Positions 2,750-46,559 of a DNA stretch of 64,000 nt are shown here, piece after piece. Within the stretch, counting starts at the first letter, position 1. Each line of letters begins with the position of its first letter. The position numbers and the translations under genes are program-made. Under the pieces are notes generated by a model. That model had not been told where the DNA came from, ran no database searches, and saw only the letters and a program-made list of their open reading frames with translations. The DNA lies in assembly GCA_011389985.1 (NCBI GenBank), contig JAABTH010000005.1:1-64000 (forward strand). Reading direction: 5' to 3'. The stretch comes from Bacillota bacterium (GTDB lineage Bacteria; Bacillota; Dethiobacteria; DTU022).

Positions 2750-4324
2750 TTACTCGAAGTAAGTGCCCAACAAAATAACATTACCGATCGGATCCAACCT
2801 GAAATCAACAACGTTACCGGCAACAGCTGCGGTGTAGTCATTATGCGCAACCGGCATCATAGAAGCATCGTTGTGGATAATTTCCTGCATTTCACGGTAA
2901 TACTGTTCCTGCAGTTCCATATCGTTAGTAGCATTCGCCATATCCGACAAGTCCCATAGTTCCTGCGGTTTGTAATTATTTGTCATTCCTTCCAGGACAA
3001 GTGCACGCATGAAATTGTTAGGGTGAGCCACATCATACCAGCCTTCAAAAGCCAGCTGGTAATCGTAGGAGCTGATCAGGGCAAAATGGGTGGCTGCTTC
3101 GTTTACAACTACCGTAGGATTAATGCCAACAGCCCTGAGGTAGTCCGCAACAATTTCAGCAGCATCTATTGGCCGGCCAATATAAACACGGGCGGTAGAA
3201 AGAGTATGAATGTCCAGATCAAAACCGTCAGGATAACCGGCTTCAGCCAATAATTCTTTTGCTCTTTCAGGATCATATGCATAGGGAACAATGTCATCAT
3301 TAAAACCAAAGACAGTAGGAGGCATAGGATTAATTGCGCGGGTTCCCAGGCCTTCATAGACACTTTCCACCAGCTTATCAAAATCGATAGCATGCATCAG
3401 GGCCTGTCTAACTCGAACATCCCCTAAAGGCTCTGCATCATGATTGATACTGCCATAAAAGATATTAGCCCCTGCCATACGGACTATGTTTATATCTGGA
3501 TCAGCTGTTAAAACTTCAAACTGTTCAGGTAGAATAGTTTTTATCGCATGCACTTCGCCGGTCTGCAGTTCCATCATACGGGTTGAGGCGTCAGGAACCA
3601 CTTTCCAGATTATCTTCTCGATAGCCGGTTTTTCGTCCCAGTAATCATCAAAGAGAACCATACTGGTTAACTCTTCGCTTTTCCATTCTTCCATCATGTA
3701 AGGTCCAGTGCCAACCGGGTTTTTGTAGAATTCATCCCCGTATTCCTGAACTGCTGTCGGGCTGATAATAAACTGTGAATAAAGCCCCATATAAGTCAGG
3801 AAGGGGGAGAATACATTGTTTAAAGTAAATTCTACCGTATAATCGTCAATTGCCTTTACTTCAGCGATTACATCACCAAGCAGGTAGTCAAGGTATGACC
3901 AATCGCCCATGTTTGCATAAGGATGATCTTCCTGCAAAATTCTTTCATAAGTAAACACTACTGCATCAGCATTAAAGTCGGTTCCGTCATGAAACTTAAC
4001 GCCTTCCCGAAGCTTGAAAGTCCAGACAGTGCCGTCTTCAGAGTTAGACCATTCGGTGGCCAATGACGGACCCACATTCAGATCATCGTCTATGTATTCC
4101 ACCAAACCTTCGTAGAGATGATACATTAAATCGATTTCGCCTTCATAATAAGCCCAGTTGGTATCAAGAGTCACCGCATCGGTCCCCCTGGCAACTATAA
4201 AAATATCATCTTCCTGTCCCGCCGGATCACCGTTTACTGCTTCTTCCTGGGCACATCCAAATACACTGAAAGCCAACAAAACTGAGATAAATACCATTAA
4301 AAACAAACTACTTTTACCCCTCAT
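2750..4324 (-). CDS. Extracellular solute-binding lipoprotein, family 5 (DppA/OppA type)
   Basis: The protein has 524 residues. The N-terminus is a lipoprotein signal with lipobox SVFGC at about residue 24, followed by an acidic linker. The body is a typical family 5 binding protein of dipeptide, oligopeptide or nickel importers, with segments such as LATEWSNSEDGTVWTFKLR and VGTGPYMM. It captures substrate outside the membrane for the permeases and ATPases encoded just upstream. AAGGAGG lies ten bases before the ATG. Binding specificity cannot be read from the sequence; the hydrolase-rich operon suggests a peptide or acylated amino compound. Confidence 0.93.
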   Translation of the reverse strand: MRGKSSLFLMVFISVLLAFSVFGCAQEEAVNGDPAGQEDDIFIVARGTDAVTLDTNWAYYEGEIDLMYHLYEGLVEYIDDDLNVGPSLATEWSNSEDGTVWTFKLREGVKFHDGTDFNADAVVFTYERILQEDHPYANMGDWSYLDYLLGDVIAEVKAIDDYTVEFTLNNVFSPFLTYMGLYSQFIISPTAVQEYGDEFYKNPVGTGPYMMEEWKSEELTSMVLFDDYWDEKPAIEKIIWKVVPDASTRMMELQTGEVHAIKTILPEQFEVLTADPDINIVRMAGANIFYGSINHDAEPLGDVRVRQALMHAIDFDKLVESVYEGLGTRAINPMPPTVFGFNDDIVPYAYDPERAKELLAEAGYPDGFDLDIHTLSTARVYIGRPIDAAEIVADYLRAVGINPTVVVNEAATHFALISSYDYQLAFEGWYDVAHPNNFMRALVLEGMTNNYKPQELWDLSDMANATNDMELQEQYYREMQEIIHNDASMMPVAHNDYTAAVAGNVVDFRLDPIGNVILLGTYFE

Positions 4325-6309: not shown

Positions 6310-7167
6310 CTAAACTCTTAGCTTCGCATCCATAGCTTCTCTTAAACCATCTCCCAGCAGGTTAAATGAAAGCACTGCCAGAAATATCATTATGCCAGGG
6401 AATACTGTAACCCACCATTTTCCCAGCAACAAATAGTCTTTGCCTCCGCTGAGCATGGCGCCCCATTCTGGTATGGATGGATCAATACCGACTCCGAGAA
6501 AACCCAACGCTGCAGTATAGAGGATGGCATCCCCAAGTAATAGGGTTAAATAAACTACCGTAGGCGTAATAATATTGGGCAAAACATGCCTGAGCATAAT
6601 CCAAAAGTGCCCTCCACCCATGGCCAGAGTTGCTTCAATATAAGGCAATTCCTTAACCGTAAGGACTGAACCCCTGACTATACGGGCCAATCCCGGAATA
6701 TAGACAATCGCAATCGCCAGCATGGCCTTTTCTATGCCAGTACCAAGAGCAGCAACAATAACCAGGGCAAGCAGCAGGGGTGGAAAAGCAAGAACAATAT
6801 CGACCACTCTCATAATCAGCATATCCAGGATGCCACCATAATAACCTGAAATAATACCGAGAATTATACCAACAAAAGCTGTAATAATAATTACCGTGTA
6901 TCCAACTTTTAAAGAAATTTTTGCGCCATAGAGTAAGCGGGCCAGTAAATCACGACCAAGACCATCTGTACCCAACATGTTTTCATAATTATCCGCCCAA
7001 AAACCCGGAAGCAACCTGGCATCCAGGTTTGTTGAAAGAGGATCAAATGCCGTTAATCTCGAACCCAGCAGGGCAATGAAAACCAGAGCAAGGGCTACAA
7101 AGAAGGCCAGAACTGCCAACCGGTTTTTTTTAAATTGTTTTATAAACATCATAAATTCAGTATCCAT
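6310..7167 (-). CDS. dppC: ABC importer permease (DppC/OppC type)
   Basis: The 285-residue inner-membrane permease has a cytoplasmic N-terminus with a KKNRLAVLAF-type segment, about six membrane segments, and the binding-protein-dependent transport (BPD) region with an EAA loop (YIEATLAMGGGHFWIMLRHV) that contacts the ATPase. The extracellular region after the first helix, with a DGLGRDLLARLLYG-type segment, is typical of DppC. It pairs with the upstream DppB-type permease. Confidence 0.93.
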   Translation of the reverse strand: MDTEFMMFIKQFKKNRLAVLAFFVALALVFIALLGSRLTAFDPLSTNLDARLLPGFWADNYENMLGTDGLGRDLLARLLYGAKISLKVGYTVIIITAFVGIILGIISGYYGGILDMLIMRVVDIVLAFPPLLLALVIVAALGTGIEKAMLAIAIVYIPGLARIVRGSVLTVKELPYIEATLAMGGGHFWIMLRHVLPNIITPTVVYLTLLLGDAILYTAALGFLGVGIDPSIPEWGAMLSGGKDYLLLGKWWVTVFPGIMIFLAVLSFNLLGDGLREAMDAKLRV

Positions 7168-7186
7168 CTAAATAACCCCCCGTTAC

Positions 7187-8194
7187 TCAGTAACGAATAC
7201 GTGGATCAAGATAAGCGTAAATCAGATCGACAACAAGATTAATGACTATAAAAACAAGAACAACAAAAAGGACTATACCCTGAATCATCGGGTAATCACG
7301 AAAACCGATACTGGTGATTAATAGTCTCCCTATTCCCGGCCATGAAAATACTGTTTCGGTCAAGACAGCGCCGCCCAATAGCTGGGCAACAGAAAGTCCG
7401 ATAACGGTTACAACAGGGATTAAAGCGTTTTTTAAAGCATGTTTAAATACAACAATATTCATCTTTAAACCCTTGGCCCGTGCAGTTCGGACATAGTCTT
7501 CGCCCAACACTTCGAGCATACTGGAACGGGTAACCCTGACAAAAAGAGCAAGATAAACTGTTGCCAGCGCCAATACCGGCATTGCCAGGTGTCTTAAAGC
7601 ATCAATAAAAAATTTAAGATTTCTGGTTAGAATTGCATCAATTAAATATAACCCTGTAACTTCATTGACACTTAAGCCCAGGGAAAGGCGCCCCGATACC
7701 GGCAGCCAGCCCAAAACCACTGCAAATAAAAATATCATCATCATCCCCAGCCAAAAGATAGGAATGGATACACCGAGTAGCGAAAACCCAATTGCCATCT
7801 GGTCTATAATGGTATTCCTATAACGGGCAGCAGTTACTCCAATTAATATCCCGGCGCTGGCCGCTATAAATACAGAACCAATAGCCAACTCCATTGTTGC
7901 CGCCAACCTGGTTAGAATCTCGTCCAGTACTGCAGTATTTGTCCTGATTGATGTCCCAAAATCACCTTTCATTGCCGCTGTAAACCAGTTAATAAACTGA
8001 ATATGCATCGGCTGGTCAAGACCCATTTTCTCGATCAGGGCCAAGCGGGCAGCTTCTGTTGCCCTCTCACCAAGCATTACTGTGACAGGATCACCGGGGA
8101 TAATGTGAATTAAAAGAAAAACTACAATGCTTGCTCCGATTAAAGTCGGTATGACAATCAATAATCTTTTAATAATGTAACGATAAAATGCCAT
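7187..8194 (-). CDS. dppB: ABC importer permease (DppB/OppB type)
   Basis: The 335-residue permease has the classic DppB N-terminus (RYIIKRLLIVIPTLIGAS), the FLLIHIIPGDPV segment, and the EAA loop in EDYVRTARAKGLKMNIVVF followed by HALKNALIPVVT. GGAGGCG precedes the ATG. It is the first gene of the transporter block, which follows the M20 hydrolase gene after about 95 bases. Confidence 0.94.
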   Translation of the reverse strand: MAFYRYIIKRLLIVIPTLIGASIVVFLLIHIIPGDPVTVMLGERATEAARLALIEKMGLDQPMHIQFINWFTAAMKGDFGTSIRTNTAVLDEILTRLAATMELAIGSVFIAASAGILIGVTAARYRNTIIDQMAIGFSLLGVSIPIFWLGMMMIFLFAVVLGWLPVSGRLSLGLSVNEVTGLYLIDAILTRNLKFFIDALRHLAMPVLALATVYLALFVRVTRSSMLEVLGEDYVRTARAKGLKMNIVVFKHALKNALIPVVTVIGLSVAQLLGGAVLTETVFSWPGIGRLLITSIGFRDYPMIQGIVLFVVLVFIVINLVVDLIYAYLDPRIRY

Positions 8195-8288: not shown

Positions 8289-9461
8289 TTAGCCGTTTAA
8301 ATATTTTAGTGCAACCCTTACCAGCATTTCCGTTCCGGTTAAAAGGGCATCTTCATCAATGTTGAAACAGGGATGATGGTGCGAATAATCTGTTTTTTTA
8401 TCGCAATTTCCGGAACCTATGAAAAAAAAGACCCCGGGTACAGACCTGATATATTCTGAGAAATCCTCACCGCCCATTGATCTGAAAGCGGCTGAAAGCA
8501 TTTTCTCGTTAACCAAACATTCCAAAGCTGCACGGCGAGCAATTTTTACCATCTGCGAATCATTGGAAACTATTTCATTGCCTATTTTATATTTCAATTC
8601 ATATTCAGCCTTGTTAAGGGAGCAAATACCGGCAACAACTCTTTCAAAAGCTTCCTTAACAGCTGCGCCTTCAGCAGACAAAAACCTGATTGAGCCCTGC
8701 ATTTTAACTTCTTCCGGTACTATAGTCGGGCTGGAGCCTGCATTGATCTTAGTAAAAACTATTGCTACCGGCTCCAGCGAATCAAGCTCCCTCGTCTGCA
8801 TAGACTGCACTGCCTGTATGATACCGGCACTAATTGAAATGGGATCTACTGCCCTATGCACACTGCCTGCATGCCCGCCCTTGCCTTTTACCGTAAGATA
8901 AAAATAATGGCTCGCAGCCATTACCGGTCCATCAAAAATATCAATTTTACCAGTTTCAAGGTCAGACCAAAGATGCAGACCAACTGCCGCATCTACCTTT
9001 GGATTATCCATAACGCCTTCATCAATCATCAGGTACGCCCCGGCATCTTCCTCGTTAGGCTGAAATACAAACTTAATATTACCGTTAAGTTTACTTTTCA
9101 ATTTAGCCAGTATTTGTGCCGCAATTAGCATCATGGCCATATGGCCGTCGTGACCGCAAGCGTGCATTATGCCTTTGTTAACTGAACAGTAAGCCAATGA
9201 CTCATTCTGTTCGTGCACCGGCAAAGCGTCCATATCTGCCCGTAAAAGTAAGGTTTTGCCTGATCCGCTACCCCTGAGCAACCCTACAACACCTGTTTTA
9301 GCCATTCTATTAACTTCTAGCCCGCAACTCACCAGGTAATCGGCAATAATATCTGCAGTCCTGTGCTCTTCAAATCCCAGTTCAGGATGCTGATGAAAAT
9401 CTCTTCGAAGCCTGATCAGCTCTTCACTATAACGGGATATAACCTTTTTAATTTCCGGCAT
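8289..9461 (-). CDS. M20 family amidohydrolase (N-acyl-amino acid/hippurate hydrolase type)
   Basis: The protein of about 390 residues belongs to the M20D amidohydrolases that remove an acyl group from amino acids (aminoacylase, hippurate hydrolase or IAA-amino acid hydrolase type). Metal-site motifs are visible in HACGHDGHMAMML, in NEEDAG and near the C-terminus in MGGEDFSEY. The dimerisation domain follows residue 180. The ATG at 9461 is preferred over the one nine bases upstream, because it forms a TAATG overlap with the stop of the dehydrogenase gene and has GAGG nine bases before it. It probably releases a free amino acid for the adjacent dehydrogenase. Confidence 0.9.
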   Translation of the reverse strand: MPEIKKVISRYSEELIRLRRDFHQHPELGFEEHRTADIIADYLVSCGLEVNRMAKTGVVGLLRGSGSGKTLLLRADMDALPVHEQNESLAYCSVNKGIMHACGHDGHMAMMLIAAQILAKLKSKLNGNIKFVFQPNEEDAGAYLMIDEGVMDNPKVDAAVGLHLWSDLETGKIDIFDGPVMAASHYFYLTVKGKGGHAGSVHRAVDPISISAGIIQAVQSMQTRELDSLEPVAIVFTKINAGSSPTIVPEEVKMQGSIRFLSAEGAAVKEAFERVVAGICSLNKAEYELKYKIGNEIVSNDSQMVKIARRAALECLVNEKMLSAAFRSMGGEDFSEYIRSVPGVFFFIGSGNCDKKTDYSHHHPCFNIDEDALLTGTEMLVRVALKYLNG

Positions 9462-32403: not shown

Positions 32404-35400
32404 CATTTAAGCTTAAATTTCTGCAAACTCCCCGGGTTGAGCTGAAAAGTATCCCCGGCAAAGCCAATTGTTACCGGCGTTCTTGAGTCCGTCCGACTGA
32501 CCAGGGTTAATAAATTCTCGGTAATATTCACCTCAAGCTGATTATCACGGTATACGATACTAAATCTCAGGCGATCGAGCTCGGATGGCAGACGCGGATT
32601 AAACCACAGCACATCCTCACGCTTCTCCAGCCCGGTGTAGCACCTCACGATCAGGTCAACAGTGCCGGCCATCGCTGCCAGGTGAATCCCCTCAAAGGTT
32701 GTGCCGCCCTGGATATCCTCAATATCGCTACGCAGGGCTTCCTGGAAAAGATGCCAGGAACGTTCACGTTCGGAACGGGCTAAAACCCAGGCATGAACAA
32801 TATAACTTAGAGTTGAACCATGTGACACCCTCTTCATATAATATTCTATATTATCAGGAAGCATTTCGGGCTTAAAACTGTAATTCATCCTCTCAAACAG
32901 CTCTCGGAGCTCTGCGGAAGAAAAAAGATAGAAGAGCATTAATACATCAGCCTGCTTGGAAAGCTTGTAATTATTGGGGCTGTCACCCTCTGCTTCGAGA
33001 ATGCGATCCAGACGCTGGATATTTTCGTACTTTTCCCGGTAGCCTTCCCAGTCAAATTCTTTTAGTTCATCGTAACCTTCAAATTGGCTGATTACCCCCT
33101 CTTCAAGAAAATAAATTTGCATCTTACGGCTCATATCATTCCAGCGGTCTATTTCATTTTGAGTTACAGCCAGATTTTCCAAAATGTATTTTTTCCGGGT
33201 AGCAGGAAGAATATCGAGCATTTCCAGGGCCCGGCACATCAGCCAGCATACCATCACATTGGTATAAGCATTATTATCGATTCCCGGTTCCGACGATCCG
33301 GGATAACGTTCGTGAAATTCATCGGGCCCCATAATCCCCCGAATATCATAGCGATCAGTTGATTTGTTATACTCTGCTTTGCCGGACCAGAAACGGGCAA
33401 TCCTGATTATAAGTTCTGCCCCATATAAACATAAAAAATCAATGTTTCCGGTTACCTGGTAATAGTGCCAGATGTTATAGACTATAGCCAGGTTGATATG
33501 CCGCTGAAGGTGGGTGTCATCCGGTATCCACCGGCCGGACTCAGGATTAAGATGCCATTCCTGCGCCTGTTCGCTTCCATCGCTTCCGCTTTGCCAGGGA
33601 AACATAACTCCACCTGATCCTTCCCGCTCCGCCGCCCGGCAAGCCCGCGGCAAACGGCGATAGCGGTACAGCAGCAGGTTACGGGTTATATCAGGAATTC
33701 CCAGGTTGAGCAGGGGGCTAATAAATATTTCATCCCACATGATCAAACCGCGGTATGCCTCCCCATGAAGGCCACGGGGCGGCACACCAACATCGAGACC
33801 AATGGTGTTGGGCGATACCGTTTGTAGCAAATGAAAGATATGCAGGTTAAGCGCCTTTATAATATTGCGATCTTTAGTTTCAAGCTTTATATTCCAGCGC
33901 TCCCAGAGATGTTTCCAGCCCAGGATATGGAATTCCAGAAGCTGTTCAAAACCAGCAACATGACGAAGAGCATGCTGCGCTTCAATCAGGCTTTCTGAAA
34001 TAGCAAAATCTTTTGAATTGTAGATAGCCACTGTTTTTTCAACGCGTATGGTTTCACCTGCTTCAATTTGCAGATCAAATTCCTGTCCGATATAGCCATC
34101 TTTCTCGATTACTCTGCCATCACCTTCAACAGGATTATCATCCTTAAAAAGCCTGGTTCGGGCTGCTTCAGCGATACGAATATGAGATTGATTCGTCTCA
34201 ACCTGGATCCAGATCAGTCGATCATCAGTGACACCTTTGCCAAGTTGGTTCAGGTGATGGGTATTAAGCTGCTGGTAGCGTTCAACCAGGCCGTTTTTCA
34301 CCCTGCCGTCAAGCGCTGAGTGGATCTGAATTTTTCCAGACCAGTTTTCAGCCTCTATGATCGTTTCCAGGGCGGCAAGGTTTTGATATCTCATATGCAC
34401 GAAACGCCTTTGAAAAAGTTTCGTCCGGCGTTTCTTTTTATCGCTGAACTTTACTGTTCTAATCAGAATTCCTTTTTTCATATCCAACTCCTGGCGGTAG
34501 TCCAGGATATCAACTTTTTCGAGGCTGAAGCTATCTTCATCTTCAATCCTAAAAGTAAGGGGCAGCCAGTTGGGGACATTAACCAGACTTTCATTTTCCA
34601 CAGTTTTACCGGCAACTGTGCTTTTTAACCGGTTATACAGGCCGGCTACATAGGTTCCGGGATAGTGATTTTCACCAGCAGCCGATTCCGGTGCCGCACC
34701 CCTGGTTGCGAAATAACCATTGCCCAGGGTAGAAAGAGCTTCCCGATGTTTTTCTGCCCCTGGCTCAAATCCTGTGTAAACGAGAGACCAGATATCCGAA
34801 TCCTGTCCTTCCTCCGCCAAATTTAAAAGCTCTTTAAGAAACTTTTTAACTTCCAGAGGATTATTTAAAAAATATTCTGCTGCAGTATCACGGCCTTCAT
34901 CATCAACAAGGATGCCTATTCCCCGGTTCTTTACCGCTTTAAATGCATCTTCGTCAGTAACATCATCCCCGATATAGAGTGGTGCTACCTTTGCATCAGC
35001 CGGGTATAATTTTTCAAGCAGGTGTAGTATCGCTTTGCCTTTATCCCAATCCATTGTCGGACGCAGTTCAAATATTTTTTTACCCAGTGTTTTGACTAAA
35101 TCCGGTATCTGTTCGGCTATTTCATCAACCCGTTTTTCAAGTATAGAAACAGTTTCTTCCTCAGCCTGGCGGTAATGCAGAGTAATCGCATAAGGCTTGC
35201 GTTCAAGACGAACGCCCTCCAGTTTATTAACCGGTTCTTTTAGCCTGTCTTCCGCCATATCAAGAGACGGCAGGAAACGCTTTCCGGGTTCTTCATGAAA
35301 TGAATCGTAAGGTCCGGCCATATTATAGCCATGGCTGCCTGCATAGACCAGGTTTTCCAAACCGACCAGCTTCCTGACATCCTTCAGCGCCCGCCCGCTA

Positions 35401-35612
35401 ACAATTACTACCGCCCAGATTTCTGAAATATTTTTAATTAGCAACCTAACTTCCTCTGCTAAAACTGCCCTATCTGGATCATCTACTATCGGAGTTAGGG
35501 TACCGTCGTAATCCAGAAATATTGCCGGTTTACCTTCCTTAAGCTTCTTAAAAATATCATCTTTATTCTCAAGGGCTGCTAGCGGCTCTTTTTTTTCATG
35601 CTTCTTATTCAC
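32403..35612 (-). CDS. Trehalose-6-phosphate phosphatase / GH65 phosphorylase fusion
   Basis: The protein has 1069 residues. The N-terminal domain (about 25-270) is an OtsB-like HAD phosphatase: AIFLDYDGTLTP with Asp34/Asp36, and IGDDVTDEDAF. The C-terminal domain (about 300-1065) is a glycoside hydrolase family 65 enzyme, with the catalytic Glu in IMGPDEFHERYPG near residue 765 and the substrate-site segment RGLIMWDEIF. GH65 members phosphorylise or hydrolyse trehalose, maltose, kojibiose or related disaccharides and their phosphates. The combination suggests linked turnover of trehalose 6-phosphate. The start is GTG with GGAG upstream. Similar architecture is known for mycobacterial OtsB1. 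Confidence 0.9.
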   Translation of the reverse strand: MNKKHEKKEPLAALENKDDIFKKLKEGKPAIFLDYDGTLTPIVDDPDRAVLAEEVRLLIKNISEIWAVVIVSGRALKDVRKLVGLENLVYAGSHGYNMAGPYDSFHEEPGKRFLPSLDMAEDRLKEPVNKLEGVRLERKPYAITLHYRQAEEETVSILEKRVDEIAEQIPDLVKTLGKKIFELRPTMDWDKGKAILHLLEKLYPADAKVAPLYIGDDVTDEDAFKAVKNRGIGILVDDEGRDTAAEYFLNNPLEVKKFLKELLNLAEEGQDSDIWSLVYTGFEPGAEKHREALSTLGNGYFATRGAAPESAAGENHYPGTYVAGLYNRLKSTVAGKTVENESLVNVPNWLPLTFRIEDEDSFSLEKVDILDYRQELDMKKGILIRTVKFSDKKKRRTKLFQRRFVHMRYQNLAALETIIEAENWSGKIQIHSALDGRVKNGLVERYQQLNTHHLNQLGKGVTDDRLIWIQVETNQSHIRIAEAARTRLFKDDNPVEGDGRVIEKDGYIGQEFDLQIEAGETIRVEKTVAIYNSKDFAISESLIEAQHALRHVAGFEQLLEFHILGWKHLWERWNIKLETKDRNIIKALNLHIFHLLQTVSPNTIGLDVGVPPRGLHGEAYRGLIMWDEIFISPLLNLGIPDITRNLLLYRYRRLPRACRAAEREGSGGVMFPWQSGSDGSEQAQEWHLNPESGRWIPDDTHLQRHINLAIVYNIWHYYQVTGNIDFLCLYGAELIIRIARFWSGKAEYNKSTDRYDIRGIMGPDEFHERYPGSSEPGIDNNAYTNVMVCWLMCRALEMLDILPATRKKYILENLAVTQNEIDRWNDMSRKMQIYFLEEGVISQFEGYDELKEFDWEGYREKYENIQRLDRILEAEGDSPNNYKLSKQADVLMLFYLFSSAELRELFERMNYSFKPEMLPDNIEYYMKRVSHGSTLSYIVHAWVLARSERERSWHLFQEALRSDIEDIQGGTTFEGIHLAAMAGTVDLIVRCYTGLEKREDVLWFNPRLPSELDRLRFSIVYRDNQLEVNITENLLTLVSRTDSRTPVTIGFAGDTFQLNPGSLQKFKLK

Positions 35613-39177: not shown

Positions 39178-39465
39178 TTAAATACTGACTGTGTAGCGTT
39201 CTCCCGCCGGCGGACCGGCTAGAACTCCGGCCAATTTGCCCATTAACTCGCGGTAAATCGGCGCCGTTTCAAAAGCTGCCAAGTCTGCTTCCGTTTCCCA
39301 AATATTAATCGAAACGGCTTTGTTTGTATCTTGCTGGGTAAAGAAATACTGGCTTTTAAAGCCCTTTTGTTGCTCCAGGACAGGCATGATCGCTTCCCTG
39401 ACGATGCGAACACCTTCATCAACTTTGCCCGGTTGGAGCTGCACATTAACCACCCTGGCGAACAT
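39178..39465 (-). CDS. Antibiotic biosynthesis monooxygenase (ABM) domain protein
   Basis: The 95-residue protein has the ferredoxin-like dimeric alpha-beta barrel pattern of ABM proteins: FARVVNVQLQPGKVDEGV, then VLEQQKGFKSQYFF and VSINIWETEADLAAF. Members include heme-degrading and quinone-oxidising enzymes and many of unknown role. The ATG at 39465 is preferred because GGAGG is well spaced before it, whereas the GTG four codons earlier directly abuts that site. Confidence 0.8.
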   Translation of the reverse strand: MFARVVNVQLQPGKVDEGVRIVREAIMPVLEQQKGFKSQYFFTQQDTNKAVSINIWETEADLAAFETAPIYRELMGKLAGVLAGPPAGERYTVSI

Positions 39466-39853
39466 GGTTATCTTCACCTCCTTTGCAAGAGTTTTTGTTT
39501 TGCCTGAAAAGTTTCGCTTTCTGGTTTTAATTAATACTTTTTAAGAGAACCATGAGGTCAGGTCTTGAAATCCACTATTTTATTTTACTTACGGGAAAGG
39601 TTATAGTTGGAACGAAAAGTCGCAATATTCCAAGCTTTTCTTTTTCTATAACAAAACCAGGAACAAAAGTCAAGCATCGACAAATTTCGGATAGACAAAT
39701 TTCGAAACCTCTGCCTCCTTAATTGGGGGTTTTGGTCTTGCCGAACATGAGATTCCTCTTTCTATATCTCCAAATTATTCCCTTGCTAATCCCTACAATA
39801 ACTTAACACTATGTCTCTTTATATCTCTGTTGACTTGGTGATCGGCTAGTGTT
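39466..39853. other. AT-rich gap without a recognisable gene
   Basis: The 388-base stretch has only a short GGTCAGG-CTTGAAAT motif at 39553 that recurs near 58.41 kb, and a small direct repeat (GACAAATTTCG) near 39680-39705. Neither suggests a gene. Confidence 0.5.
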
Positions 39854-40084
39854 ATGTCCCTGCAGTCGGAACTGCTCTGGCAGCGGATCATGCTTTACAT
39901 CGCCGGTGTCGTAATTTTCGGCTTCAGCGTAGCTCTTTACATCAGCGCCAATCTCGGCGACGGCCCCCTGGACGTGAGAACTGTCCGTTTAAACCAGCTA
40001 TGCTTTCAGATTTACAAAACCGGACTGATCATCATTTCGAGCAGACCCCGAAAACCTATTATTCTTTTAATCAGACAATTTTGA
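39854..40084 (+). pseudogene. Truncated YczE/YitT-like membrane protein
   Basis: The first 40 or so residues (RIMLYIAGVVIFGFSVALYI then SANLGDGPLDV) match the N-terminus of YczE/YitT-type membrane proteins, where an NxGxGPxD motif follows the first helix. After that the sequence becomes unrelated and stops at 76 residues. The rest of the gene is missing. Confidence 0.65.
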
Positions 40085-40101: not shown

Positions 40102-40131
40102 TTGACAACTATTGTATAATATTTGTATTAT
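40102..40131 (+). promoter_or_regulatory. Promoter of the ATP-grasp fusion gene
   Basis: TTGACA (40102-40107), an 18-base spacer and TATTAT (40126-40131) lie 85 bases before the ATG of the next gene. A second TATAAT inside the spacer is too close to the -35 box to be used with it. Confidence 0.65.
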
Positions 40132-40216: not shown

Positions 40217-42196
40217 ATGAACCAAAAAAAGGAATTGCTTACCGTTGCCTTCGAAAGCGAAAAACTCAGCTACAGCAATCTTGAAGTTGACCTGAATAAT
40301 TCCGGGATCAACCAGATCTTAAGTGTCTGCGCCGCACGCGGACATACGATTTATCATTTTACTATTCAGGATCTTTTTTATCATGAAGGAAATGCTTTGG
40401 CCAAGACCTCTGTCCTGACTCTGCCTGAGAGCTGGTACACAGATCCTCTCGAGTGCTACACTTTGCTTAGCAAGATTGACGAGCGTCCGGTTCCTCTCGG
40501 TAATATTGACCTGTGCTTTATGCGGGGCGATGATGTCAGGCACTCGGGAACTCCCAACCTCGATATCCTGCGCGAGCTGGAAAACCACAGCTTGCTGATT
40601 GAGCGCATTGATGCCACCCTTTCCACAACTGACAAATATGAAATAATCAAGCGGGTTCCGGAAATACCCCAGCCGGTAACATATGCAGCCGGCACCTTTG
40701 ACGAAGCCATGCAGGCCTTAGACAGAGTGCCTGGCAGAGAAGGAGGTTACTTTGTTTTAAAAGACAGGTTCGGCTATGGATGCGGACACGGAGTTCACCG
40801 TATAAAATTTGCCGACCCGGAACTTCCGGAAGTTTTGAAAATGTACCTCAGCAACTATGAAAGCATTATCCTGCAGGAATACTGCCCGGAAGTAAAAAAA
40901 GGCGATCTTGTTGTGACTTTTTTTGATGGAGAATTAATTGGCACAATGTGCCGGGTAGCAGCTCCTGGAGAATGGAAAACCAACTTCAGTTTAGGAGCCA
41001 CGCAGTTTTCCTATAACCTTTCTTCCGATCAGGAAAAAATTGCCCGCACGGTCCAGGACGCGTTCTCAGAATGCCGCCTGCTTTCTGTTGATATGCTCCA
41101 ATCCGGCAAAGTGCTGGAGGTTAACGCTTTTCCCGGAGCAAAAGGCTTGCTTGACCTCTACGGTATTTCTTTGGGTACAATTGCTATGGATCGCATCGAA
41201 CGTGAACTGCTGGGGACGGAAATTGCCATCTCCTTCGAGCCGCAGGTTATAAAACCGGAACCTGCCGCCAGATGGGATGACATTTATTATCAATACAGCA
41301 GTCATGATGAACCTGTCGAAGTCCTCGATATCTTCAGCGAAGAAAAATACAATCTTGCCGTGAAGGATTTGATACAGTTTCGTCCCCAGAATCCTGATTT
41401 TATCCTTTCCATTCCCCATGCAGGAGTTTTAGTGCCTGTCAAATACAAAGAGCACTTTGAAATAAATTCAAAATCGCTTTTAGAAATAGATCTCTTCAGC
41501 GATATTCTATTTGAATCCGTAGGGGGACTACAGGTAATATCCCGTCTGGCCCCATTTTTTGTTGACATGAATCGCAGCAGGGAAGGATCTGAATCTGAAC
41601 AATTGCCCGGCCACCTGACCAACCTCCCAACAGAATATTACAGCATTGAAGATGAACTGGTTCTGCAGAAGGAGTACAGCCCCGCCCAGGAAGAACAGAT
41701 CCTGAAGTATTATGATCTCTATCACGGGATCCTAGCCTCTCTAATTGAAAATCTGAAAAGGGAGCAGGGATATGCCCTGCTTATTGACGCTCACTCCATG
41801 TCTTCGGTTGGCCTCGGCCGGGTCTATGACGAGGGACAGGAAAGGGATAACATAGTAGTCGGCACCCTCGAAGGCAAGTCGGCGCACCCGGATATAATAG
41901 AAGCTTTTGTAGCTACATTGAAGCAAAATATAAAACCTTACCGCCTGGGCCTGACCTGCGCGGAAAACGAACCTTACTCGGGAGGCTTCATCACCAGGAT
42001 GCACAGCAATCCCGGCAACGATGTCCATGTTATCCAGGTTGAAGTAACTATGGATACCTACATGTACGAGCCGGTAGATTCAAACAGGTCCAAACGTTAT
42101 GCTTTGAAGCAGTCCAGACTTCACATTACTCAGGACTTCCTACGCAAAGCGGTCCTGGCAGCCTCAGATGCATGCAGGAAGATCTATACTTCCTGA
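40217..42196 (+). CDS. ATP-grasp ligase fused to N-formylglutamate amidohydrolase-like domain
   Basis: The protein has 659 residues. Residues about 10-345 resemble glutathione-synthetase/RimK-type ATP-grasp ligases: GYFVLKDRFGYGCGHGV for ATP binding, SIILQEYCPEV, and the metal-binding end LEVNAFPGAKGLLDLYG. Residues about 395-655 resemble N-formylglutamate amidohydrolase: SIPHAGVLVP, FFVDMNRSREG, LLIDAHSMSS, NEPYSGGFITR and VIQVEVTMD, which hold the predicted Zn ligands and substrate residues. One half would form an amide or peptide bond with ATP, the other would hydrolyse one, reminiscent of glutathionylspermidine synthetase/amidase. It is a single gene with its own promoter. The substrate is unknown. 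Confidence 0.85.
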   Translation: MNQKKELLTVAFESEKLSYSNLEVDLNNSGINQILSVCAARGHTIYHFTIQDLFYHEGNALAKTSVLTLPESWYTDPLECYTLLSKIDERPVPLGNIDLCFMRGDDVRHSGTPNLDILRELENHSLLIERIDATLSTTDKYEIIKRVPEIPQPVTYAAGTFDEAMQALDRVPGREGGYFVLKDRFGYGCGHGVHRIKFADPELPEVLKMYLSNYESIILQEYCPEVKKGDLVVTFFDGELIGTMCRVAAPGEWKTNFSLGATQFSYNLSSDQEKIARTVQDAFSECRLLSVDMLQSGKVLEVNAFPGAKGLLDLYGISLGTIAMDRIERELLGTEIAISFEPQVIKPEPAARWDDIYYQYSSHDEPVEVLDIFSEEKYNLAVKDLIQFRPQNPDFILSIPHAGVLVPVKYKEHFEINSKSLLEIDLFSDILFESVGGLQVISRLAPFFVDMNRSREGSESEQLPGHLTNLPTEYYSIEDELVLQKEYSPAQEEQILKYYDLYHGILASLIENLKREQGYALLIDAHSMSSVGLGRVYDEGQERDNIVVGTLEGKSAHPDIIEAFVATLKQNIKPYRLGLTCAENEPYSGGFITRMHSNPGNDVHVIQVEVTMDTYMYEPVDSNRSKRYALKQSRLHITQDFLRKAVLAASDACRKIYTS

Positions 42197-42512: not shown

Positions 42513-43385
42513 TCACTGCGGTTCCCCAACTATTTCAAATGTCTCTGAAGCGAGTTCAATGACCCCTTTATGTTTTTCAAATTCCTCCAGAAGTCTGGTG
42601 AATAAGGCATCTTTTGTCACCCTTCTCGCCCTAATATCAACTATATATCGCAGGGAAAATTCGATCCAGTTATCGTTGAAAATCATGAATGTTTGGTGTT
42701 CAAGTTTAGCATTCTCCAGCTTGAATTTTTTTCTCATGTCATACCAAGCTTCCTTTGCTTGTTTGGAGACATTTCCAACGACTTCATCAGCTACACTATT
42801 CAGAATATTTCTAACTACTTTAATGTCGCTACCAAATCGAATCGGTATATAAATCTCATCCCAGACAAATTGGAAGCTGGCAGAATAATTAAATACTGGC
42901 GATGTGAAAATAGAACTGTTGGCAACCCGGACAATTCTTCCGTTATATTGATCACTATTAACCCAGTCTCCAATTTCCATAAGGGTTGTTCTAAGAATTC
43001 CTAAGTCTATAACATCTCCTTTAATACCACCAAGAAGTACTCTATCTCCAACTTTAAAGAAATCTCCAAAAAGTATTGCAAACCATCCGGCAAAGCTTAT
43101 GATAACCTCACGAAGAGCAAAGGTTATCCCAGCACCTGCGAGCCCAATCGTCGTGTAAAAACCTTCAAATCTATCACTGAAGGTAAATACAAAGATTAAA
43201 AAGATAATGCCATAAATGGTGTTCATGACAGCTTTCTTGATAGAGTACCATTTGTTCTGCTCCTGGAGCACCGGATACAAACGGTTTAGAATCTTCTTTG
43301 AAGAAACATACAAGAGAATTGCAATTATGAGAAATATTGCAATCCGTATATAGATTGGGTCAATGGAATTGATAAACTCTCTCAT
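42513..43385 (-). CDS. MscS-family mechanosensitive channel
   Basis: The 290-residue protein has three or more N-terminal membrane helices and the MscS pore and beta-domain region. The segment GLAGAGITFALREVIISFAG is followed by FFKVGDRVLLGG. The cytoplasmic part continues to about residue 285. The family releases solutes on hypo-osmotic shock. The ATG at 43385 is preferred because GGAGG precedes it by five bases; an upstream TTG overlaps that site. Confidence 0.88.
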   Translation of the reverse strand: MREFINSIDPIYIRIAIFLIIAILLYVSSKKILNRLYPVLQEQNKWYSIKKAVMNTIYGIIFLIFVFTFSDRFEGFYTTIGLAGAGITFALREVIISFAGWFAILFGDFFKVGDRVLLGGIKGDVIDLGILRTTLMEIGDWVNSDQYNGRIVRVANSSIFTSPVFNYSASFQFVWDEIYIPIRFGSDIKVVRNILNSVADEVVGNVSKQAKEAWYDMRKKFKLENAKLEHQTFMIFNDNWIEFSLRYIVDIRARRVTKDALFTRLLEEFEKHKGVIELASETFEIVGEPQ

Positions 43386-43605
43386 AGACTCCTCCAACTA
43401 TTTTGACTCAACCAATTGCAGTCATTCTTTTTCTGAAAGAAAAGATTCAGGCTGTCTCATGATACAATAACAAAGCTTTGTTGCAAAACCAGGTTAGAGA
43501 TAATACGAACTATCTATTATTTTAGCCTAGTAAGAGAGAAAAGGCCACATAAAGGTTTAGACAGGAGCAAATAGCTTATGGTAAGGAAGTATTTTTATCT
43601 AAAAA

Positions 43606-46115: not shown

Positions 46116-46559
46116 ATGGATGAAAATATAAAATGGACGAGTGGCACATACCAGGCAAAAGAAAAATCTGATCAAGAAGCTGTTCCGCAGTTTTTTGAAG
46201 AATCTGCTGTTCGTAAAACGCGGCAGTTTATAGAGAGTTTTCCACATTATGATCGTACTCCTTTAAGAAGCCTGGAACAGCTGGCTGCAACCCTTGGAGT
46301 TGGAGGAATTTATGTTAAAGATGAATCATACCGTTTTGGCCTTAACTCCTTTAAAGTGCTGGGAGGCGGGCATGCTATCGGTCGTTATCTTGGTGAGCGT
46401 CTGGGGCTTGAAGAGTTGAAAGAGGAACTCGCTTTAAATCAAAGTTCTCACATTCTTTTGTTCAGCACTGAAGGTGATACGGATCCTGAAATGTACAGAA
46501 GAATCGTCTGGGATGGCGCGTATCCAGATGAAAGTATCTGCAGTAAGGTAGAGGAGTGA
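46116..46559 (+). pseudogene. Diaminopropionate ammonia-lyase with large in-frame internal deletion
   Basis: The 147-codon frame starts after a strong AGGAGGTG. Residues 1 to about 112 match the N-terminus of diaminopropionate ammonia-lyase, with the PLP-site segment KDESYRFGLNSFKVLGG. Residues from about 115 match its extreme C-terminus (SSHILLFSTEGDTDPEMYRR, then IVWDG). The family is normally about 400 residues, so some 250 internal codons are missing without loss of frame. The PLP lysine region remains, but the catalytic core is absent, so activity is very unlikely. Confidence 0.8.

Follow-up and report, generated by a model that had tools for sequence, protein, structure and literature searches.

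A rare fusion of an ATP-grasp ligase with an N-formylglutamate amidohydrolase-type domain, a candidate for opposed activities on one class of amide

The gene and its surroundings

The window analysed here, a 64,000-nucleotide stretch from the genome of an uncultured Bacillota bacterium, carries at positions 40217-42196 of the forward strand one open reading frame that starts with ATG, runs without an internal stop, and encodes a protein of 659 amino acids in which an ATP-grasp ligase is followed by an amidohydrolase of the N-formylglutamate amidohydrolase (FGase) type. The ligase domain, of the glutathione-synthetase/RimK type, occupies residues ~7-335 (40235-41221) as delimited by Pfam, an AlphaFold2 model of this half, and VIA-align; the hydrolase domain, placed by Pfam and VIA-align, occupies residues ~381-657 (41357-42187). 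The strongest Pfam match is to FGase (PF05013; residues 395-616, E 3.4e-35, 122.6 bits against a gathering cut-off of 28.9), GSH-S_ATP (PF02955; residues 179-304, E 1.1e-15) and RimK (PF08443; residues 150-319) also exceed their gathering cut-offs, and GSH-S_N (PF02951; residues 34-105) is the weakest match at 23.9 against 21.3 bits; no other Pfam domain is found in the protein at E <= 0.01. When the window protein and 15 full-length homologues from several phyla are scanned at E <= 0.001, FGase, GSH-S_ATP and RimK are matched in 16/16 and GSH-S_N in 14/16. Because all 16 match both domain families, the fusion is no assembly chimera, and the original prediction that one polypeptide joins a ligase to an amide-cleaving hydrolase holds. 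A protein query of the window's own genome (E <= 0.001) finds no second copy, only the protein itself.

The nearest domain-bearing reading frames on either side, an ABM frame upstream (39181-39477) and an MscS-like channel downstream (42516-43397), both lie on the opposite strand, so the fusion gene is most likely transcribed singly, as had been predicted, without operon partners. The same prediction credited the gene with a good promoter. A site matching the consensus at 11/12 positions, TTGACA-18-TATTAT at 40102-40131 on the gene's strand, is indeed the best of 10 promoter-like sites in the region; however, shuffled sequences yield 6.7 +/- 2.8 such sites, so that they are not enriched here, and among seven homologues aligned the site is recognisable in two (L018 and L019) and unclear in the other five. 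We therefore regard it only as a plausible promoter. Just upstream, at 39854-40081 on the forward strand, a 76-residue open stretch resembles a 224-residue reading frame directly upstream of the L018 homologue (7119-7790), and is likely a decayed gene in the window. Two other features of the window deserve mention in their own right. At 32406-35612 on the reverse strand lies another two-enzyme fusion, a 1069-residue protein that may act in trehalose metabolism: a trehalose-6-phosphate phosphatase (164 bits to T6PP, whose cut-off is 68) is joined to a glycoside hydrolase family 65 enzyme (GH65 domains above cut-off). A 147-residue frame at 46116-46556 on the forward strand matches only about the first 95 of the 396-402 positions of diaminopropionate ammonia-lyase models, and is probably a gene remnant.

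A survey of fusion homologues and their neighbours had been suggested, and a conserved neighbourhood was sought as a hint at the substrate. Comparison of 26 loci, made with a simple ORF caller and leaving out the neighbours of L043, yielded neither an informative operon nor a conserved neighbour gene: clusters of shared neighbours are pairs of contigs with one exception, which spans three loci (L018, L035 and L040) and is united solely by the widespread GGDEF domain. Ten neighbour genes scanned with Pfam have unrelated functions, two of them matching nothing, and in both L025 and L032 a VanY/Peptidase_M15 gene adjoins the homologue, though not on the same side. Given this lack of conserved neighbours, the substrates are probably metabolites common to most cells.

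Catalytic residues, folds and family membership

The motifs that had been described as apparently intact were all located, at residues 401-403 (HAG), 450-457 (DMNRSREG) and 524-527 (DAHS). The prediction had staked itself on the key residues of both halves surviving careful alignment, and in the alignments made here the predicted ATP-grasp and metal residues are all intact. Seven predicted ATP-grasp residues (K140, K182, R246, N256, D292, E301 and N303; 40634-41125, a span that also holds V232) and seven predicted metal or catalytic residues (H401, D425, N452, R453, H526, R594 and E609; 41417-42043) are invariant in 16/16 full-length proteins, and those of the ligase are also invariant in all 23 rows of the ligase-half alignment. 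Six of the ligase residues, K182, R246, N256, D292, E301 and N303, correspond to K160, R225, N235, D273, E281 and N283 of E. coli GshB and are identical in 18/18 ligase halves; GshB K125 falls one column off K140. We take the GshB residues to include the ATP-binding lysine, the Asp/Glu/Asn residues that hold magnesium, and an Arg210 with a substrate role. At the position of GshB R233 the ligase halves have Lys in 17 cases and Arg in one, GshB S286-P287-T288 has no counterpart, and the position of R210, an Arg in both E. coli and Paracoccus GshB, is Val in 18/18 (V232 in the window protein), indicating that the acceptor pocket differs from that of E. coli GshB.

An AlphaFold2 model of the ligase half alone (346 residues, 23 alignment rows) reached a pLDDT of 89.5, and its best match is E. 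coli glutathione synthetase 1gsa (Foldseek E 2.3e-21; VIA-align Z 27.9, rmsd 3.4, 303 residues aligned), followed by ArgX, RimK and LysX structures (VIA-align Z 22.7-24.9). This fit, together with the invariance of K182, D292, E301 and N303, places the half among the ATP-grasp enzymes. The whole-protein AlphaFold model has a pLDDT of 65.3 and so gives no mutual placing of the halves; its hydrolase half alone was used, and its ligase rows (2glt, 1gsa and 1glv, rmsd > 11) were replaced by those of the half model. That hydrolase half matches the FGase structure 2q7s (VIA-align Z 20.9 over 251 residues, rmsd 3.2) as well as 2odf (Z 19.6 over 231 residues, rmsd 2.9), with carboxypeptidases and PghL-like enzymes next at Z about 10.

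Neither half is a plain member of the families nearest to it. By NCBI family models, those nearest to the ligase beside GshB are MptN, RimK and LysX, and the window protein misses the cut-offs of GshB (TIGR01380, 73.2 against 299.05 bits; NF003573, 76.5 against 272), MptN (NF040720, 91.1 against 350), the RimK-family alpha-L-glutamate ligases (TIGR00768, 66.4 against 143.4) and, by a wide margin, LysX. The likeness to the GshB/MptN/ArgX-LysX/RimK group is thus one of fold and of predicted ATP- and magnesium-binding residues, whereas the low scores, the valine in place of GshB R210, and the fused hydrolase set the protein apart. In the same way the hydrolase half resembles HutG (TIGR02017, PF05013) in fold and catalytic core: all seven predicted residues, which include the H, D, NR, H, E core, are common to three annotated HutG proteins (L065, L066 and L067), two of which adjoin hutH. 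It differs in scoring 89.8 bits against the HutG cut-off of 278.75, in its fused ligase, in the absence of hut domains among the window neighbours scanned, and in the loop that follows the DLNR motif of HutG (STGESLYPGQxTTGLCP in the three HutG rows), which is replaced here, so that the hydrolase may well act on an acyl group other than formyl. On the score we reject assignment of the hydrolase to the ordinary HutG family of histidine degradation. A split homologue described below (L038) behaves alike, its hydrolase scoring 92.4 bits against the same HutG model.

A glutathione-based metabolite is unlikely for the window gene, judging from its genome's gene content. Neither gamma-glutamylcysteine ligase family (PF04107 or PF04262) was detected in the window genome, a draft that is 96.8% complete, or in eight further genomes of its family. 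Among 14 host genomes searched, PF04107 was found in two (G457 and G459, hosts of the homologues L038 and L043, for which the missing-ligase argument has no force) and PF04262 in none, in searches whose controls rang in 5/14 and 2/14. Glutathione synthase was accordingly rejected as an identity for the window gene, on its low GshB scores, the R210-to-Val change, and the missing gamma-glutamylcysteine ligase.

Conservation shared with HutG and the related fold of poly-gamma-glutamate hydrolase PghL lead us to predict H401, D425 and H526 as metal ligands and E609 as the general base; zinc in PghL is reported to be bound by His41, Glu46 and His102, with Glu165 implicated in catalysis (PMC6506827). 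Both halves are kept by purifying selection: Nei-Gojobori dN/dS is 0.09-0.15 for the ligase half in five pairs and 0.05-0.11 for the hydrolase half in the same pairs, rough values, since dS exceeds 1 in three of the ten comparisons and some rows were used twice. Another possibility is that the hydrolase does mere housekeeping or editing, destroying a wrong by-product of the ligase or clearing N-formyl amino acids, in a fusion without regulatory meaning. A loop diverged from HutG around a preserved core would suit such a role, but the strong conservation of the whole chain and a pairing maintained across phyla make it quite improbable.

The ligase relatives MptN, RimK and ArgX/LysX are glutamate or aminoadipate ligases, and HutG, the nearest hydrolase family, acts on N-formyl-glutamate; since relatives of both halves share glutamate as the amine side, the comparison suggests glutamate as the amine partner here. 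Against this, GshB, the closest structure, ligates glycine rather than glutamate. Part of the assignment for the ligase relatives is given in PDB titles and in PMC8141765, which also describes MyfB, 33% identical to MptN, as building polyglutamate on methylofuran.

Distribution and the fused and split forms

The gene is rare and patchy. Of 60 relatives, counting the window, 16 show a match of some kind at E <= 0.001, and in eight it is full length; within the window's family a match at E <= 1e-15 occurs in 14/43 genomes and spans the full length in ten, again counting the window, and the sole other genome of the window's genus has none at that threshold. One relative (G030) retains, inside a contig (L014, 1501-1608), a 36-residue piece of the hydrolase C-terminus at 58% identity and no other significant piece; we read it as a decayed remnant of a gene lost in that relative. 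Absence from 29 of the 43 family genomes (E <= 1e-15), together with this remnant, shows that the gene is dispensable for the lineage. Samples from other phyla gave a match in 1/398 genomes at E <= 1e-15 and in 1/246, 1/247, 1/246, 1/246 and 2/247 at E <= 1e-40, two of the 1/246 samples being the same phylum with the same listed genomes, and in every case the matches were the seed genomes only. Single-half relatives at 24-31% identity in the relatives' genomes, and single ATP-grasp matches in the seed genomes, were taken as other families.

A scan of public genome contigs with two peptide patterns, which more distant members would escape, recovered 26 loci, at identities from 89% down to 48%. 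Going by record titles, the hosts are mainly Syntrophomonadaceae MAGs, and further include bacterium GSL_GB14_3 (L028), a deltaproteobacterium (L030), a gammaproteobacterium (L031), Desulfotignum (L035 and L040), a Gemmatales bacterium (L038), an Ilumatobacteraceae bacterium (L041) and 'Candidatus Siliceabacter', filed in Actinomycetota (L043); most loci are MAG contigs, and individual host names may reflect binning errors. One homologue, 71% identical to the window protein, sits on a contig titled Candidatus Nealsonbacteria (L036), a host name that is probably such an error. The patchy occurrence suggests that the gene has probably spread horizontally. Many hosts come from samples that we take, from their title names, to be soda-lake material (CSSed, T1Sed, T3Sed and B1Sed) or to stem from the Great Salt Lake or El Tobar; metagenomes of Kulunda soda-lake sediments have been published. 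The link to saline or soda-lake sediments is weak: L038 and L043 seem to come from non-saline sources, and soda lakes may just happen to be where the window's family was sampled.

We also considered a phage, viral, plasmid or defence gene and rejected it. Two scans of viral contigs, each with a few peptide patterns, found no relative; one record of a phage collection matches, in the hydrolase half only; 641 records of a plasmid collection match, none covering 80% of the query, and among the 30 of these that were listed the annotated ones are hutG or gshB; and the fusion protein matches no PADLOC or PHROGs family at E <= 0.01.

In 21 of the 26 loci both halves can be seen, whole or in part, and the remaining five (L036, L037, L039, L040 and L042) break off at a contig end, so that a lone half is seen only where a contig ends. 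Among the 21, one homologue (L029, 6498-8510) has a single in-frame stop in its ligase half and is either a decayed gene or an assembly error, and two carry the halves as a natural two-gene version of the fusion, a form new to this work. In the Ilumatobacteraceae contig (L041) the ligase stop and hydrolase start overlap in ATGA at 4022-4025, and the hydrolase gene runs off the contig; in the Gemmatales contig (L038) the ligase ends in TAA at 8997-8999 and, after 13 nucleotides (GGAGGCAGGAGCC), the hydrolase starts with GTG at 9013. As the frames are open on both sides of each junction, we read these pairs as adjacent separate genes and not as broken fusions.

Trees of the two halves agree in their main groups. 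The ligase-half tree recovers the split L041 as sister to the fused L043 (96/94), with L038 joining this pair (99/98), and the hydrolase-half tree groups the same three only weakly (75/89). L030, L031 and L035 form a group in both trees (100/98 and 98/100), and both part these six and L028 from, or place them beside, the 11 Bacillota-type rows. Because the branches to the outgroups are very long and meet other long branches, either fusion or fission may have come first. The two domains have been inherited together, paired as a fusion or as closely coupled genes.

A proposed mechanism, its rivals and known counterparts

We propose, with a probability of about one half, that the protein is bifunctional and works in both directions on a single class of compound, making and also hydrolysing an amide of the form X-CO-NH-glutamate. 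In this mechanism, the ATP-grasp half would use Mg-ATP to convert a carboxylate of an acceptor X to an acyl phosphate, which an amino acid, most probably glutamate, would attack through its amino group to give X-CO-NH-Glu. In the FGase half, H401, D425 and H526 would hold a metal and E609 would serve as base for hydrolysis of an N-acyl-glutamate amide, so that the pool of the compound could be set by one protein. That both halves act on the same bond, the metal and its ligands, glutamate as partner, and any regulation are what we infer from the comparisons above.

The main rival is that the two activities are consecutive steps in one direction and not opposed: an amino acid or peptide would lose its N-acyl group (formyl, acetyl or other) to the hydrolase, and the amine or acid so freed would be joined by the ligase to another partner. 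Fused or closely coupled enzymes are often consecutive in a pathway, the split pairs fit equally well, and the HutG catalytic core is kept in the hydrolase half. Such a route would nevertheless have to draw on widespread metabolites only, because no other pathway gene is conserved nearby. The data fit both readings, and we hold sequential remodelling to be possible, though a good deal less probable than opposed action.

Opposed ligase-hydrolase fusions are already known as a kind. The original prediction drew its analogy with glutathionylspermidine synthetase/amidase (GspSA), in which, as in trypanothione synthetase-amidase (TRYS), both activities serve for and against one metabolite. The analogy is a fair one in architecture, since these enzymes likewise carry an amide synthetase and an amidase-type domain in one chain, but it does not extend to the domains themselves: the amidase of GspSA is a CHAP-type cysteine enzyme and its synthetase belongs to another ATP-grasp branch, and neither a CHAP cysteine amidase nor a GSP-type synthetase domain is found in the fusion protein (Pfam, E <= 0.01). 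A glutathione-based substrate is, moreover, unlikely for the window gene, since neither of the two gamma-glutamylcysteine ligase families searched for was detected in its genome. TRYS is a described example of an opposed fusion of this type (PMC2784880).

RimBK of Desulfotalea psychrophila is a closer published analogue: it too joins an ATP-grasp amino-acid ligase to a hydrolase in one polypeptide, its domains too occur elsewhere as separate proteins, and the protease activity of the RimB-RimK hybrid is reported to have been demonstrated with purified protein (PMC11957791). Its hydrolase, however, is an N-terminal retropepsin-like aspartic protease, RimB (PMC11957791), whereas the hydrolase here is a C-terminal FGase. 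No RimB-like domain is detected in the window protein (Pfam, E <= 0.01), whose ligase fold begins at residue ~7, and its ligase scores well below the RimK-family cut-off. The fusion might still work in the RimBK manner, its ligase adding glutamates or another amino acid to a carboxylate of a protein or cofactor and its hydrolase trimming them. RimK is among the nearest structures and families of the ligase half, but with that low RimK-family score, with no neighbouring target gene conserved, and with the known FGase relatives acting on small N-acyl amino acids, we think such a role unlikely. Precedents for it are the removal of glutamates from RpsF by RimB and likewise by the RimB-RimK hybrid (PMC11957791), and the polyglutamate that MyfB builds on methylofuran (PMC8141765).

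In the literature searched, we met no GshB/MptN-like ligase joined to an FGase domain, although the survey of amidoligase contexts by Iyer et al. (2009) might mention one. Should both halves act on one and the same bond, as our preferred reading of opposed activities holds, the protein would join GspSA/TRYS and RimBK as a further ligase-hydrolase fusion of separate assembly, and one whose naturally split forms offer a way to study each activity apart. A bolder form of this reading, which we consider doubtful, is that the gene constitutes a self-contained, rare and probably horizontally spread metabolic switch of one or two genes for the synthesis and breakdown of a so far undescribed N-acyl- or peptidyl-glutamate. 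In that case the hosts, many of them found in saline or soda-lake sediments, might use the compound as a charged compatible solute or to store nitrogen or glutamate.
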